A stretch of DNA of 62,680 nt from NCBI GenBank assembly GCA_019117485.1, contig DWZQ01000027.1, positions 1-62,680 of the forward strand. Reading direction: 5' to 3'. Of this stretch, positions 5,626 to 27,960 are shown in pieces (position 1 is the first letter of the stretch; each line of letters begins with the position of its first letter). The position numbers were made by a program, and so were the translations under genes. The stretch is from Candidatus Agathobaculum intestinipullorum (GTDB taxonomy: Bacteria > Bacillota > Clostridia > Oscillospirales > Butyricicoccaceae). The notes beneath the pieces are model-generated. The model ran no database searches and was not told the DNA's origin. It was given only the letters and a program-made list of their open reading frames with translations.

Positions 5626-5649
5626 AAAGCGCCCAAACGGGCGCTTTCA
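5626..5649 (+). terminator. gluQ terminator, copy 1 of a duplicated hairpin
   Basis: AAAGCGCCC-AAAC-GGGCGCTTT, 9-bp stem, short T run. The same 22 bases recur at 5862-5883, 236 bp downstream. Confidence 0.75.
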
Positions 5650-5861
5650 GTTTGTCGATAAAGTTCCCGCGCCGCAGGCCGTAGCCCGCGATACTGCATT
5701 CCGCCGCCGCGCGGCGGTAAAATGCGCGTCGCGTATAGTTCAGCCGCTCTGTGAGCGGCATTAAAAAAGCGAGCTTTGCCCGTTTTTTTGATACAACTGA
5801 TTCGATTGGAAGCGTGGTTCCAATCGAGAGGCCGTCGAAAACTACGTTTTTCGACAGCCTC
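5648..5861 (-). repeat. Hairpin-chain intergenic element A
   Basis: A 214-nt non-coding stretch made of consecutive stem-loops. Read on the minus strand it shows GTCGAAAA/TTTTCGAC, CGATTGGAA/TTCCAATCG, then TATCAAAA followed by CGGGCAAAGCTCG and TTTTTT (core hairpin, plus positions 5762-5789), then CCGCTC/GAGCGG and a CGCGACGCGCAT segment. The core hairpin matches those of elements C (12887-12919) and D (27868-27900), so this copy is in opposite orientation to them. It is bracketed by two identical terminator hairpins. No protein-coding content. Confidence 0.65.
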
Positions 5862-5890
5862 AAAGCGCCCAAACGGGCGCTTTTCTTTTT
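5862..5890 (+). terminator. Terminator copy 2
   Basis: Same AAAGCGCCC-AAAC-GGGCGCTTT hairpin as at 5626, here with a better T tract (TTTTCTTTTT). Confidence 0.75.
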
Positions 5891-8101: not shown

Positions 8102-8134
8102 AGCCCCTCGGAACGGATGTTCCGAGGGGCTTTG
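8102..8134. terminator. Bidirectional terminator, copy 1 of a duplicated hairpin
   Basis: AGCCCCTCGGAAC-GGAT-GTTCCGAGGGGCT, a perfect 13-bp stem. The same 32 bases are found at 8344-8375. Confidence 0.8.
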
Positions 8135-8343
8135 GTTTGTAAAAACTGATGTATAGTGCAGTTGCTGGAGCGTAGCGATATGAAATAACAAAATTCGGGG
8201 GCATGTACCTCGAATTTTGCCCTTAACCCGCGCCATCGGGCGCGAAACCGGGGGTATCAAAAGCGGTTTCTTCTGGAACCGCTTTTGTAGATAGGGGGTA
8301 TTGGATACCCCCTATCGAGCTGTCGAATTTTTTCGACAGCTTC
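8134..8343 (+). repeat. Hairpin-chain intergenic element B
   Basis: A 210-nt non-coding stretch of successive stem-loops between two identical terminators: AAAATTCGGGG/CCTCGAATTTT (8190-8218), CGCGCC/GGCGCG, a core hairpin CAAAAGCGG..CCGCTTTTG (8258-8287) preceded by GGGTAT, GATAGGGGGTAT/ATACCCCCTATC (8290-8316, 12-bp stem) and AGCTGTCGAA/TTCGACAGCT (8318-8341). The core keeps the TATCAAAAGC...GCTTTTG frame of elements C and D but has a different inner stem. The last hairpin matches that of element A. Confidence 0.65.
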
Positions 8344-8377
8344 AGCCCCTCGGAACGGATGTTCCGAGGGGCTTTTG
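8344..8377. terminator. Bidirectional terminator, copy 2
   Basis: Identical to the hairpin at 8102, 242 bp away, here next to the 3' end of thiE. Confidence 0.8.
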
Positions 8378-12230: not shown

Positions 12231-12767
12231 ATGACAAACTTAAAGGGCAGCAAGACCGAGGCCAACCTCCAGACCGCGTTTGCGGGCGAGTCCATGGCGC
12301 GCAACAAGTATACCTACTACGCCTCCAAGGCCAAGAAGGATGGCTATGTGCAGATCTCCAAGATCTTTGAGGAGACGGCGAATAACGAAAAAGAGCATGC
12401 TAAGATCTGGTTCAAGCTGCTCGAGGGGATCGGCAGCACCGCAGAGAACCTGAAGGCGGCGGCAGCCGGCGAGAACTACGAGTGGACCGACATGTATGCG
12501 ACCTTTGCCAAGGAAGCCCACGAGGAAGGCTTCGAGGATATCGCGTTCCTGTTTGAGCAGGTCGGCAAGATCGAGAAGGAGCATGAGGAGCGTTATCTCA
12601 AGCTGCTCTCTAATGTCGAGAATGAGCTGGTATTCTCCCGCGATGGCGACTGCATCTGGCAGTGCTCCAACTGCGGCCACATTATGGTTGGCAAGAAGGC
12701 GCCCGAGGTATGCCCGGTTTGTGCGCATCCGCAGGCGTATTTTGAGCTGAAGGCCGAAAACTATTAA
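12231..12767 (+). CDS. rbr: Rubrerythrin
   Basis: 178 residues. The N-terminal ferritin-like four-helix bundle has the di-iron ligands in [28 protein letters not shown] and [19 protein letters not shown]; the C-terminal rubredoxin domain has CSNCGH and CPVCAHP (Fe-Cys4). Rubrerythrin reduces hydrogen peroxide to water in the cytosol of anaerobes. It follows perR in the same orientation after a good AGGAG site, so it is probably the main target of that regulator. Confidence 0.95.
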
Positions 12768-12775
12768 AAATGTAT

Positions 12776-12970
12776 TCGTTCCAGCCGTACAGGCTGAAAC
12801 GAGCCCGCCCTTGACAGGCTTTGCCTGTAAGGGCTATTGCATAAAAACACCGCAGAACTTGGTCTCTGCGGTGTTTTTATGTTTGTATCAAAAGCGCGGG
12901 CAAAGCTCGTGCTTTTGATGAAAACGGCGTGGCCGTTTTCGGATAAAATGCGCAAGCTTCGGATTGCAAG
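12776..12970 (+). repeat. Hairpin-chain intergenic element C
   Basis: Consecutive stem-loops between rubrerythrin and the convergent cysteine synthase: a 27-nt hairpin at 12776-12802 with apex CC-GTACA-GG, GCCCTTGACAGG/GCCTGTAAGGGC (12807-12834), the rubrerythrin terminator (12843-12878), the 33-nt core hairpin (12887-12919) with apex CGGGC-AAA-GCTCG and outer pairs ATCAAAA/TTTTGAT, AAAACGGC/GCCGTTTT (12921-12939) and an AAAATGCGC segment. Order, hairpin lengths and loops match element D at 27.8 kb although stem sequences differ. Confidence 0.7.
12843..12878 (+). terminator. Rubrerythrin terminator (within element C)
   Basis: AAACACCGCAGA and TCTGCGGTGTTT form a 12-bp stem with T tract; occupies the slot held by the GAAAAGTT hairpin in element D. 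Confidence 0.8.
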
Positions 12971-12999
12971 AAAAAACAGCCGCAGGTGCGGCTGTTTTT
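12971..12999 (-). terminator. Terminator of the second cysteine synthase gene
   Basis: AAAAACAGCCGC-AGGT-GCGGCTGTTTTT, 12-bp stem, symmetrical A/T flanks, two bases from the stop codon of the minus-strand gene. Confidence 0.85.
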
Positions 13000-13001
13000 G
13001 T

Positions 13002-13934
13002 TTATTCAGCAGTGAACAGCGGGGTGGAGAAGTACCGTTCTGCGGTGTCCGGCAGCACGGTGACGACCGTTTTGCCCGGGCCGAGTTTTTTTGCGAGCTG
13101 GATCGCCGCGGCAACGTTCGTGCCGCTCGAAATGCCGCACATCAGGCCCTCGAGCCGCGCCAGATCTTTCGCGGTCTGGATGGCTTCATCGTCCGTGACG
13201 ATGTACAGATGGTCGTAAATCTTGGTGTTCAGGTTTTTCGGGATGACGCCGTCGCCAATGCCCATTTGCAGGTGGGTGCCGATCGAGCCGCCCGACAGGA
13301 TCGCCGCGTTCTCCGGTTCGACCGCCCAGATTTCCAGCTGGGGGTTCTGCGCCTTGAGCACCTCGCCGATGCCGCTGATCGTGCCGCCTGTGCCGAAACC
13401 GGAGCAGAAGCCGTCGATCGGGCCGCCGACCTGTTCCAAAATCTCGGTGGCGGTGTGGTGGCGGTGGACGGCCGGGTTGGCCGGGTTGTCAAACTGGCCG
13501 GGCACAAAGACGTGCGGGTCGTTTGCGGCCATTTCGTCTGCGATGCGCTGGCATTCCGCGATGCAGTCGCCGATGTTGCCCGCATCATGTACCAAAATGA
13601 CTTCTGCGCCGTAGTGCTGCACCAGCTTGCGGCGCTCCTCAGAAACCGAGTCCGGCATGATGATCTTAACCGTGTAGCCCTTGACCGCGCCGCACAGCGC
13701 AAGGCCGATGCCCTGATTGCCGCTGGTCGGCTCGACGATAATCGTATCCGGCCCGATCAGGCCGCAGCGCTCTGCGTCCTCTACCATATTCAGGGCGGTG
13801 CGCGTTTTGATAGAACCGCCGACGTTCAGGCCCTCAAATTTAACAAGCACCTGCGCGCAGTCAGCCGGAACCATGCGGCCCAGGCGTACCATCGGCGTAT
13901 GGCCGACCGCTTCCAGAATATTGTTGCATATCAT
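13002..13934 (-). CDS. Cysteine synthase family protein (second copy)
   Basis: 310 residues, beta-family PLP enzyme. The PLP lysine lies in VGGSIKTRTA (about 38-47), the substrate loop is PTSGNQGIG at about 69-77, and SGFGTGGTISG near 180 cradles the phosphate. It differs from the cysK at 2.3 kb in the lysine motif (GGSIKTR against GSVKDR) and in HRHHTATEIL near 160. An O-acetylserine or O-phosphoserine sulfhydrylase is likely; cystathionine beta-synthase-type activity cannot be excluded. Monocistronic, divergent from the amidase gene. The shared intergenic region contains a 22-bp inverted repeat. Confidence 0.85.
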   Translation of the reverse strand: MICNNILEAVGHTPMVRLGRMVPADCAQVLVKFEGLNVGGSIKTRTALNMVEDAERCGLIGPDTIIVEPTSGNQGIGLALCGAVKGYTVKIIMPDSVSEERRKLVQHYGAEVILVHDAGNIGDCIAECQRIADEMAANDPHVFVPGQFDNPANPAVHRHHTATEILEQVGGPIDGFCSGFGTGGTISGIGEVLKAQNPQLEIWAVEPENAAILSGGSIGTHLQMGIGDGVIPKNLNTKIYDHLYIVTDDEAIQTAKDLARLEGLMCGISSGTNVAAAIQLAKKLGPGKTVVTVLPDTAERYFSTPLFTAE

Positions 13935-23953: not shown

Positions 23954-24000
23954 AACAGCAAACAGGCGGAAACAGGGCAAAAACCCGTTGTTCCGCGTAT

Positions 24001-24123
24001 TCTTCTTCCATCCAGACTATACTGTCGGCCCCGGAATTTCACCGGATCATGCTTCGGCTCGAAAGAGCGTCCGCTCGCGGGCTGTACCGCCGGTAGGGAA
24101 TTGCACCCTGCCCTGAAGAATCC
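24001..24123 (-). ncRNA. FMN riboswitch (RFN element)
   Basis: Read on the minus strand, the leader has the RFN core: TTCAGGGCAGGGTGCAATTC, CCTACCGGCGGTA, AGCCCGCGAGC, GATCCGGTGAAATTCCGGGG, CCGACAGTATAGTCTGGATG. It binds FMN and, with the downstream terminators, should switch off ribD-E-BA-H when flavin is plentiful. Confidence 0.96.
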
Positions 24124-24168
24124 TGATATTCGGTTGTCGGCAAACGCTTCCGCGCTTCACCAGAAACA

Positions 24169-27490: not shown

Positions 27491-27760
27491 ATGCGCGCAG
27501 TTATTACGGTGGTCGGCAAGGACCGCACCGGCATCATCGCCAAGATTTCGGAAACCCTTTACCAGCACGGGGTCAATATCGTTGACATTTCGCAGAACGT
27601 TATGGAGGATATGTTCGCGATGGTCATGCTGGTCAATATCGACCGCTGCACGGTGGACTTTACCAAGCTGGCTGACCTGCTCGATGCGGACGGCGAGACG
27701 CTCGGCATGAAGATCCACACCATGCATGAGGACATCTTCGACGCGATGCACAAAATATGA
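27491..27760 (+). CDS. ACT domain protein (UPF0237 type)
   Basis: 89 residues, a single ACT domain starting at the first residue: MRAVITVVGKDRTGIIAKIS, then INIVDISQ-like (VNIVDISQNVMEDMF). This small protein is almost always beside the UPF0210 gene in Firmicutes and is thought to be an amino-acid sensor, but its partner function is not known. Good GGAGGAG site. Here the usual close spacing to the partner gene is broken by the 200-nt hairpin element D. Confidence 0.88.
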   Translation: MRAVITVVGKDRTGIIAKISETLYQHGVNIVDISQNVMEDMFAMVMLVNIDRCTVDFTKLADLLDADGETLGMKIHTMHEDIFDAMHKI

Positions 27761-27764
27761 GAAT

Positions 27765-27960
27765 TCGATCAAACCGTACAGGTTTGATCGAGGCGCGGCA
27801 CCGGACAGGGTCCGGATGTCGCGCGATGCCGCGAAAAGTTCCGGTAGAAACTTTTCTCCGCACTGGTATGAAAAGCACGGGCAAAGCCCGCGCTTTTCAT
27901 GACTCTGGCAGCGGGACTGCCAGAGTCGGTTTGATGCGCGCTGCGCGCGGACGGGCAGCG
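27765..27960 (+). repeat. Hairpin-chain intergenic element D
   Basis: Five or six consecutive stem-loops: a perfect 27-nt hairpin (27765-27791) with apex CC-GTACA-GG, GCGCGGCA..TGTCGCGC with CCGGAC/GTCCGG inside, GAAAAGTT/AACTTTTC (27833-27856), the 33-nt core hairpin (27868-27900) with apex CGGGC-AAA-GCCCG and outer pairs ATGAAAA/TTTTCAT, GACTCTGGCAG/CTGCCAGAGTC (27901-27927), then TTTGATGCGCGC. No T tract follows any stem, so it should not terminate. It separates the ACT and UPF0210 genes. Confidence 0.7.

Follow-up and report, generated by a model that had tools for sequence, protein, structure and literature searches.

Covarying hairpin arrays behind stop codons in the genus Agathobaculum

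Described palindromic repeats and the arrays of the window

REP elements have a conserved stem sequence and a tetranucleotide, and the latter finds a parallel in the GTAT that stands before the core hairpin of the arrays described here. The BOX and RUP repeats of pneumococci fold in a modular manner, as these arrays do, and differ from them in sequence, hairpin number and position. As in the REP/BIME (REP-RAYT) system, the arrays are short extragenic palindromes in tens of copies, some of them close behind stop codons (PMC12306157, in extract), and as with BOX and RUP they are small interspersed repeats in a Gram-positive genome (PMC3049150, in extract). They are unlike REP and BIME in that each array consists of five to six different hairpins whose stems covary, and they fall outside the REP family on two traits, since no RAYT was found in the host genome and the stems are not conserved (42 of 48 pairs change in both partners among 93 copies). 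Hairpin elements that invade intergenic regions are also described from sponge mitochondria (PMC2800124, in extract), where the setting is an organelle.

Bacterial MITEs have inverted-repeat ends, no gene and direct-repeat flanks, and a group of relatives of our arrays of about 130-300 bp, which we call ended arrays, resembles them in these. The ended arrays differ from MITEs in that the repeated flank is an entire terminator-like hairpin of 23-44 bp, and the copies of the kind described below as C and D differ from MITEs in showing neither ends nor a flanking repeat. The targets of IS1272/IS1182-family elements are hairpins, several of them confirmed terminators, with no sequence specificity, and an insertion of the IS1272 type replaces or partly deletes the hairpin without duplicating it (extracts of PMC5678879 and PMC4923244), whereas two hairpin copies flank each ended array.

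The window, a stretch of 62,680 nucleotides from Candidatus Agathobaculum intestinipullorum, holds two arrays, D (12776-12953) and C (27764-27939), each of them a plus-strand copy of one modular chain in which five to six hairpins, H1 to H6, follow one another. In D, H1 (12776-12802; 27 nt, loop GTACA, from sequence and fold) begins 8 nt past the stop codon (12765-12767) of a rubrerythrin-like open reading frame, and is followed by H2 (12807-12834, from the fold), by a long perfect hairpin in the H3 slot (12840-12881; 42 nt with 17-bp perfect arms, built of A-tract, GC and T-tract and terminator-like on both strands), by the core hairpin H4 (12887-12919; 33 nt, loop AAA, located by motif search, with GTAT at 12885-12888), by H5 (12920-12940, from the fold) and by an ATGCGC tail (12948-12953) that starts the H6 region. 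A hairpin search placed a terminator-like hairpin (12972-12999, plus strand) between D and a convergent cysteine-synthase-like open reading frame (13002-13934, minus strand); the gene names rubrerythrin-like, cysteine-synthase-like, ACT-like and UPF0210-like were assigned by eye. Element C lies between co-directional genes, and its H1 (27764-27792, with a 27-nt core at 27765-27791, from sequence and fold) begins 3-4 nt past a TGA stop codon (27758-27760). There follow, from the fold, H2 with a bulged A (27793-27824), H3 with the arms AAAGTTCC and GAAACTTT (27833-27856, also found by motif search), the core hairpin H4 (27868-27900; 33 nt, loop AAA, motif search), H5 without a T-tract (27901-27927, from the fold) and the ATGCGC tail at which H6 starts (27934-27939).

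A sequence-only reading of the window had proposed that C and D share hairpin lengths, loops and order without sharing stem sequence. This is borne out for H1, which is 27 nt in both with the apex CC-GTACA-GG, for H4, which is 33 nt in both with the apex CGGGC-AAA-GCYCG, and for the next hairpin and the ATGCGC segment behind it; it does not extend to H2 (28 nt in D, 32 nt in C) or to the third slot, where the 42-nt terminator-like hairpin of D stands against a 24-nt hairpin in C. The outer stems of H1 do differ (TCGTTCCAG in D, TCGATCAAA in C), and the partners said to match do so inexactly, as D has one mismatch. In H4 the reported switch of the third pair, from C-G in D to G-C in C, is present, along with two G.T pairs in D and one A.C mismatch in C. 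Each element folds better than all 200 of its dinucleotide shuffles (z-scores of -11.2 and -7.5, one per element), a comparison that the same reading had suggested.

Copies, common plan and covariation

Motif and sequence searches found about 20 further copies in the 2.09 Mb of the host genome. The pattern CGGGCAAAGCYCG, at no more than one mismatch, occurs at 32 places in the genome and at 12 for the reversed-pattern control, so many of the one-mismatch places are chance; two longer patterns occur at 19 and 21 places with none in controls. The common plan of the family is H1, H2, H3, GTAT, H4, H5 and then an ATGCGCG hairpin, H6. The loops of H1 include GTACA, TACA and CACG among others, H2 consists of an outer stem, a bulged A and an inner CCG stem, H3 is AGTTCC..GAAACT with a C.A mismatch or an alternative version GCGCGCC..GGCACAC, and H4 has the loop AAA or an apex of the CGCGCATGTCG kind. 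At four loci of the host genome (L047, L064, L074 and L076) we observed a third hairpin array, which starts with TCTAAGGGGGA and its complement and has an AGTTCC..GAAACTT hairpin in common; at L076 it is close to a C/D-type array.

A covariance model of H1-H4, built from 20 copies of the host genome, gives 51 matches there at E ≤ 0.01, some of them opposite-strand overlaps. Full-length matches above 108 bits number 21 of the 51, of which 20 are the model-building sequences themselves; D, which is outside the model-building set, scores 67.6 bits (E 7e-17). The model matches 28 of the 60 genomes tested. These comprise all 25 Agathobaculum genomes, the host's included, with a best E of at most 6e-28 in 21 and weaker matches in G002, G011, G018 and G024; one of 12 genomes from other genera of the same family, weakly (E 3e-9); and two of 23 from other families, with one match apiece. 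Each genome of the genus has 7-54 matches, downstream of differing genes. In the genome collection, 76 stretches contain the exact H3 motif; 66 of them are titled Agathobaculum, nine belong to a "Eubacteriales bacterium" bin and one to a "Bacteroidales bacterium" bin, and the last (L216) may be a mis-binned Agathobaculum contig. The motif is present in the cultured species Agathobaculum desmolans.

In Rfam there is no match at the gathering score on C or D in the window, and a search of four loci gave three matches (RNAI and two others), all below their own gathering scores and taken as chance. An FMN riboswitch (RF00050) lies elsewhere in the window, at 23996-24124 on the minus strand. A phage or plasmid origin was rejected, the exact H3 motif being absent from viral contigs; neither phages nor plasmids gave a match to element C at E ≤ 1e-5. 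Literature searches on Agathobaculum and on hairpin repeats near genes returned no title or abstract start about such a family. The suggestion of a repeat family thus stands, with many copies in the genus and none of them in Rfam, and judged from Rfam and limited literature searches the family is apparently undescribed.

To describe the pairing we used two alignments, of which A1 (20 rows) was made with MAFFT independently of the model and A2 (102 rows) was fitted to the model and is therefore biased to its structure. Of the 48 pairs, 36 show changes in both partners among the 20 copies, and there are 158 double-change cells against 43 in shuffles, with none of 500 shuffles reaching the observed number; when the pairings are slid, the paired share drops from 92% to at most 48%. 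When 93 distinct matches drawn from 95 loci are compared, 42 of the 48 pairs vary in both partners; the double-change cells then number 736, where shuffles give 207 and 0 of 500 reach the observed number. The aligned rows include orthologues and are non-independent, and these counts ignore relatedness. With at least 20 copies aligned, covariation is accordingly very strong by pair counts against shuffles, and neither of the two outcomes that the sequence-only reading had named as its refutation has come about. The paired structure is certain; the level of selection, RNA or DNA, is not. Distances between copies are nearly uncorrelated across the four hairpins H1 to H4 (-0.03 to 0.24, 77 copies from A2), indicating that the hairpins vary as modules.

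If selection acted on the RNA of one strand, G.U pairs should exceed A.C pairs on that strand. In 3,976 helix cells, a count that leaves out three column pairs with more than 15% unpaired cells, we find 59 G.U and 67 A.C; before these poorly paired column pairs were dropped, the numbers were 61 and 100. Among 34 orthologous pairs, drawn from 36 that were chosen out of 58 at an identity of at least 0.75, the one-sided changes are 22 G.U, 19 A.C and 13 other, and against these 54 stand 40 changes in which one Watson-Crick pair became a different one. As a control, 86 terminator-like hairpins in the same DNA contain 33 G.U and 15 A.C (Fisher P = 0.011), and ten tRNAs contain 15 and 0, although the finder used for tRNAs is itself biased towards G.U. 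Of 97 copies, 80 fold better as antisense RNA, by a mean of 4.4 kcal/mol, the 97 being the 20 rows of A1 and 77 of the 102 rows of A2 after 25 rows that were identical or shorter than 130 nt had been omitted. Conserved mismatches in H3 and H4 accompany the better antisense folding across these 97 copies, and antisense probably folds better because the C.A of H3 and the A.C of H4 would be wobbles on the opposite strand.

Since G.U and A.C are equally rare, selection on the sense RNA is not shown, and cruciform DNA has to be reckoned with, as has a process in which one arm serves as template for the other. Compensatory change had been read, from the sequence, as a sign of selection on RNA or cruciform structure; pairing is kept, as that reading held, and the further step to selection on RNA is not established. 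A strict structured RNA, acting as a cis regulator or as a small RNA derived from the 3' UTR and read by a protein via its loops, bulged A and mismatches, would account for the recurrent unpaired features (H1 loops, H2 bulged A, H3 C.A) within covarying stems and for an orientation that matches the upstream gene. We regard it as unlikely, because the sense wobble preference is missing from the arrays, yet present in terminator-like hairpins and tRNAs, because the antisense strand folds better, and because the 7-54 matches per genome of the genus follow various genes and are absent from many C loci.

Covariation could also arise without structural selection, if each arm were repaired or replicated with its partner as template, keeping the palindromes perfect, and if copies exchanged hairpins. 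In favour of this, double changes between orthologues are nearly as common as one-sided ones (40 Watson-Crick to Watson-Crick against 54), the leftovers are strand-symmetric (22 G.T, 19 A.C) and the four hairpins vary independently. The conserved C.A mismatch of H3 and the bulged A of H2 stay uncorrected, however, and in 52 of the 58 orthologous pairs conservation is higher in H1-H4 than at third codon positions (see below), so that as the whole explanation this is very unlikely.

Position behind stop codons and history at orthologous loci

In 78 of 97 copies the sense stop codon of a long open frame lies at most 45 nt upstream of H1 or at most 12 nt inside it, while the same holds at 395 of 1,940 random positions. 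The stop codon falls within -10 to +10 nt of H1 in 69 of the 97 and at 0-8 nt in 62; the distance is 8 nt in D and 3-4 nt in C. No nearby sense stop codon was detected for 19 copies, and at three of these (L075, L194 and L209) an antisense open frame ends 5-31 nt from the end of H4. Antisense open frames end within 140 nt of the 3' end of H4 in 69 of 97 copies, at -4 to 137 nt and with no spike, a count that uses a wider window than the sense count and no random control; part of the copies thus lie between convergent genes.

Within 70 nt past H4, a terminator-like hairpin is present in 44 of 96 copies, compared with 3 of 480 mononucleotide shuffles; the antisense strand has one in 26 of 96, and in 22 of 96 a terminator-like site lies within H1-H4 itself. 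The H5 of C is not a GC hairpin with a T-tract, unlike these 44. The arrays might be no other than tandem ordinary bidirectional intrinsic terminators, to which the 44 sense and 26 antisense cases after H4 and the terminator-like H3 slot of D would correspond. We hold this to be extremely improbable, given that the recurrent loops, bulges and order of H1-H4 are not needed for termination, that C stands between co-directional genes, and that a terminator-like site occurs within H1-H4 in 22 of 96.

We compared the identity of H1-H4 with that of third codon positions in the upstream gene for 58 orthologous pairs, whose upstream proteins are more than 70% identical and which share members. Identity of H1-H4 is above that of third codon positions in 52 pairs, equal in two and below in four; it reaches at least 0.85 in 44 of 58, while the next 60 nt past H1-H4 are mostly 0.5-0.7 identical. 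This pattern suggests purifying selection on H1-H4, which we count as support for the reading preferred below. Six orthologous pairs have an H1-H4 identity of 0.75 or less, near the 0.69 of 200 random pairs, which makes replacement of the copy probable at some loci.

Of the 25 genomes of the genus, 22 yielded the C locus, and the array is present in five of these 22 (G000, G004, G012, G014 and G016), in at least three builds, with flanks 85-94% identical to the window. The arrays of G004 and G014 are alike, G000 has their AAA-type H4 together with another H1 and H2, and G012 and G016 each join stems peculiar to themselves with the other H4 type, which indicates that the builds are mosaic. The spacer that takes the place of the array is 93 nt in G013 and 135 nt in G018, where it resembles a decayed H4-H5, and elsewhere it is 9 nt in eight genomes, 10-12 nt in four and 65-78 nt in three. 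For the D locus, where the comparison took in 12 of 30 fetched loci, an array with a terminator-like H3 slot is found in G000, G020, G009 and G016, while G013 and G023 hold just a terminator-like hairpin between the same two genes; the other six loci are arranged differently or only partly covered, and in G014 an array in reverse orientation stands beside the cysteine-synthase-like gene. Presence and absence were seen in six further comparisons, with L201 and L184 keeping a terminator-like hairpin and tail without H1-H4; comparisons of this type have no direction and may record gain or loss.

Relatives with inverted-repeat ends and the reading we prefer

Motif and direct-repeat searches revealed in the window a related "type 2" array with inverted-repeat ends and the order H0-H1-H4-H5-H6 (5648-5861, minus strand). 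It lies between two identical terminator-like hairpins (5626-5647 and 5862-5883, both from fold and direct-repeat search), so that these hairpins around the array (5626-5883) are a 23-bp direct repeat. Another hairpin-rich insert (8134-8343, fold and direct-repeat search) lies between terminator-like hairpins at 8102-8133 and 8344-8375, which form a 32-bp direct repeat. The insert at 8102-8375 contains GATAGGGGGTATTGGATACCCCCTATC, part of which is also present 3' of the copy in L092.

Arrays with CTGTCGAAAAA-like ends occur in the host genome, in G011 of the same genus and in G036 of another genus, in each case between two copies of a terminator-like hairpin. By eye, 13 of 16 hairpin-bearing direct-repeat pairs were assigned to the ended kind, with weak ends in L301, and five further ended arrays were assigned in the same way in 400 kb of G011. 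The direct repeats around ended arrays measure 23-44 bp, tracking hairpin length. A strict search for the end motif gave 32 motif pairs of which only two are flanked by repeats, and the ends therefore vary. In G036 we also observed 57 model matches to a cousin array, which at L311, L317 and L325 lies between duplicated hairpins. A CRISPR-like array with the repeat ATTTCAATCCACGCTCCCGCGGAGGGAGCGAC, at about 10900-14900 of L334 (G011), was set aside from the listing of direct repeats.

The C/D-type copies of the host genome have no flanking direct repeat of at least 11 nt that resembles a target duplication, and no inverted-repeat ends by eye. No autonomous element with the same ends was found among 326 locus sequences or 20 stretches (400 kb) of G011, and no transposase with matching ends either, PF01797 being the transposase family searched. 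Mobilisation of the RAYT/IS200 type was rejected, as a profile search found no PF01797 in the host genome, which is 95% complete and might have a missed PF01797 gene. Within the genus, PF01797 is detected in five of 25 genomes at E ≤ 0.001, four of them over the cut-off (G004, G011, G016 and G024); among these, G011 and G024 are without strong C/D-type copies, and G004 and G016 have them.

It is possible, if doubtful, that the arrays are hairpin elements of the DNA level. Transposition, or a protein that organises the chromosome, would then depend on recognising the single-stranded or cruciform form, pairing would be maintained for this purpose, and the site behind stop codons would reflect target choice or tolerance. 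The equal rarity of G.U and A.C and their near equality among orthologue changes agree with such an element, as do presence and absence and different builds at orthologous sites, the relatives with inverted-repeat ends between duplicated hairpins, and the conserved C.A (H3) and A.C (H4) mismatches, which the opposite strand would read as wobbles. A role in the transcript is suggested, however, by the spike at 0-8 nt past sense stop codons and by H1-H4 identity, which lies above that of third codon positions in 52 of 58 pairs of orthologues, and the host genome has no HUH-type (PF01797) match.

Our preferred reading, held tentatively and with confidence a little under even, is that of a MITE-related, REP-like array in the 3' UTR with a cis effect on the upstream gene. 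C and D would be small palindrome arrays of Agathobaculum without a gene of their own, from a family that may descend from, or have a hairpin cassette in common with, the MITE-like elements that are flanked on both sides by a terminator-like hairpin. The array, H1-H2-H3-H4-(H5, often terminator-like)-H6, would start behind the stop codon in the direction of the upstream gene, and directly past the stop codon in this direction it would open the 3' UTR of that gene. Hairpins at the edge of the terminating ribosome, together with the later terminator-like hairpins, may set translation termination, the stability of the mRNA 3' end or read-through. Translation can be lowered by REPs whose distance from a stop codon is below 16 nt (an extract of PMC12306157, which cites the primary study), and a terminator several bp behind a gene was almost completely repressed and recovers with distance (PMC4824070, in extract). 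By placing about 140 nt between the stop codon and H5, the array would restore the distance of the terminator. Selection would keep pairing, loops and bulges, and the letters of the stems much less, and each hairpin would change as a whole, because copies exchange hairpins, because one arm serves as template for the other, or both. What the analysis shows is the family with its architecture and covariation, its position, the conservation between many orthologues, presence and absence and different builds between species, and the duplicated hairpins around the ended kind; the independent variation of the hairpins and the terminator-like hairpins past H4 also speak for this reading. The descent of C and D from the ended kind, the mobilising enzyme, co-transcription, the cis effect and the exchange mechanism are what we infer here. 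Against the preferred reading, the sense strand has no wobble preference (59 against 67 in helix cells, 22 against 19 among orthologue changes), and 80 of 97 copies fold better as antisense RNA, which is unexpected for a sense 3'-UTR RNA. Also weighing against it are the antisense open frames that end near H4 in 69 of 97 copies, the lack of flanking repeats and ends in the C/D-type copies of the host genome, the two repeat-flanked cases among 32 end-motif pairs, the place of C between co-directional genes with an H5 that has no T-tract, the negative search for a transposase with matching ends, and the 19 of 97 copies for which no nearby sense stop codon was detected.

A wider idea, which we think unlikely, is a replicator and regulator defined by shape and not by sequence, in which a DNA array places itself behind stop codons, its hairpins are rewritten as units with both arms changing together, pairing, loops, bulges and order stay the same, and host genes come to depend on it. 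What is apparently new in the family is that small interspersed palindromic elements are tied to stop codons and have an unusual mode of change. Covariation is usually taken as the mark of a functional RNA, and here it is extreme without a preference for either strand, which makes the family a test case for selection on RNA versus the maintenance of palindromes at the DNA level. If the preferred reading is true, these common gut bacteria may possess a genus-wide layer of control at the 3' ends of their genes.
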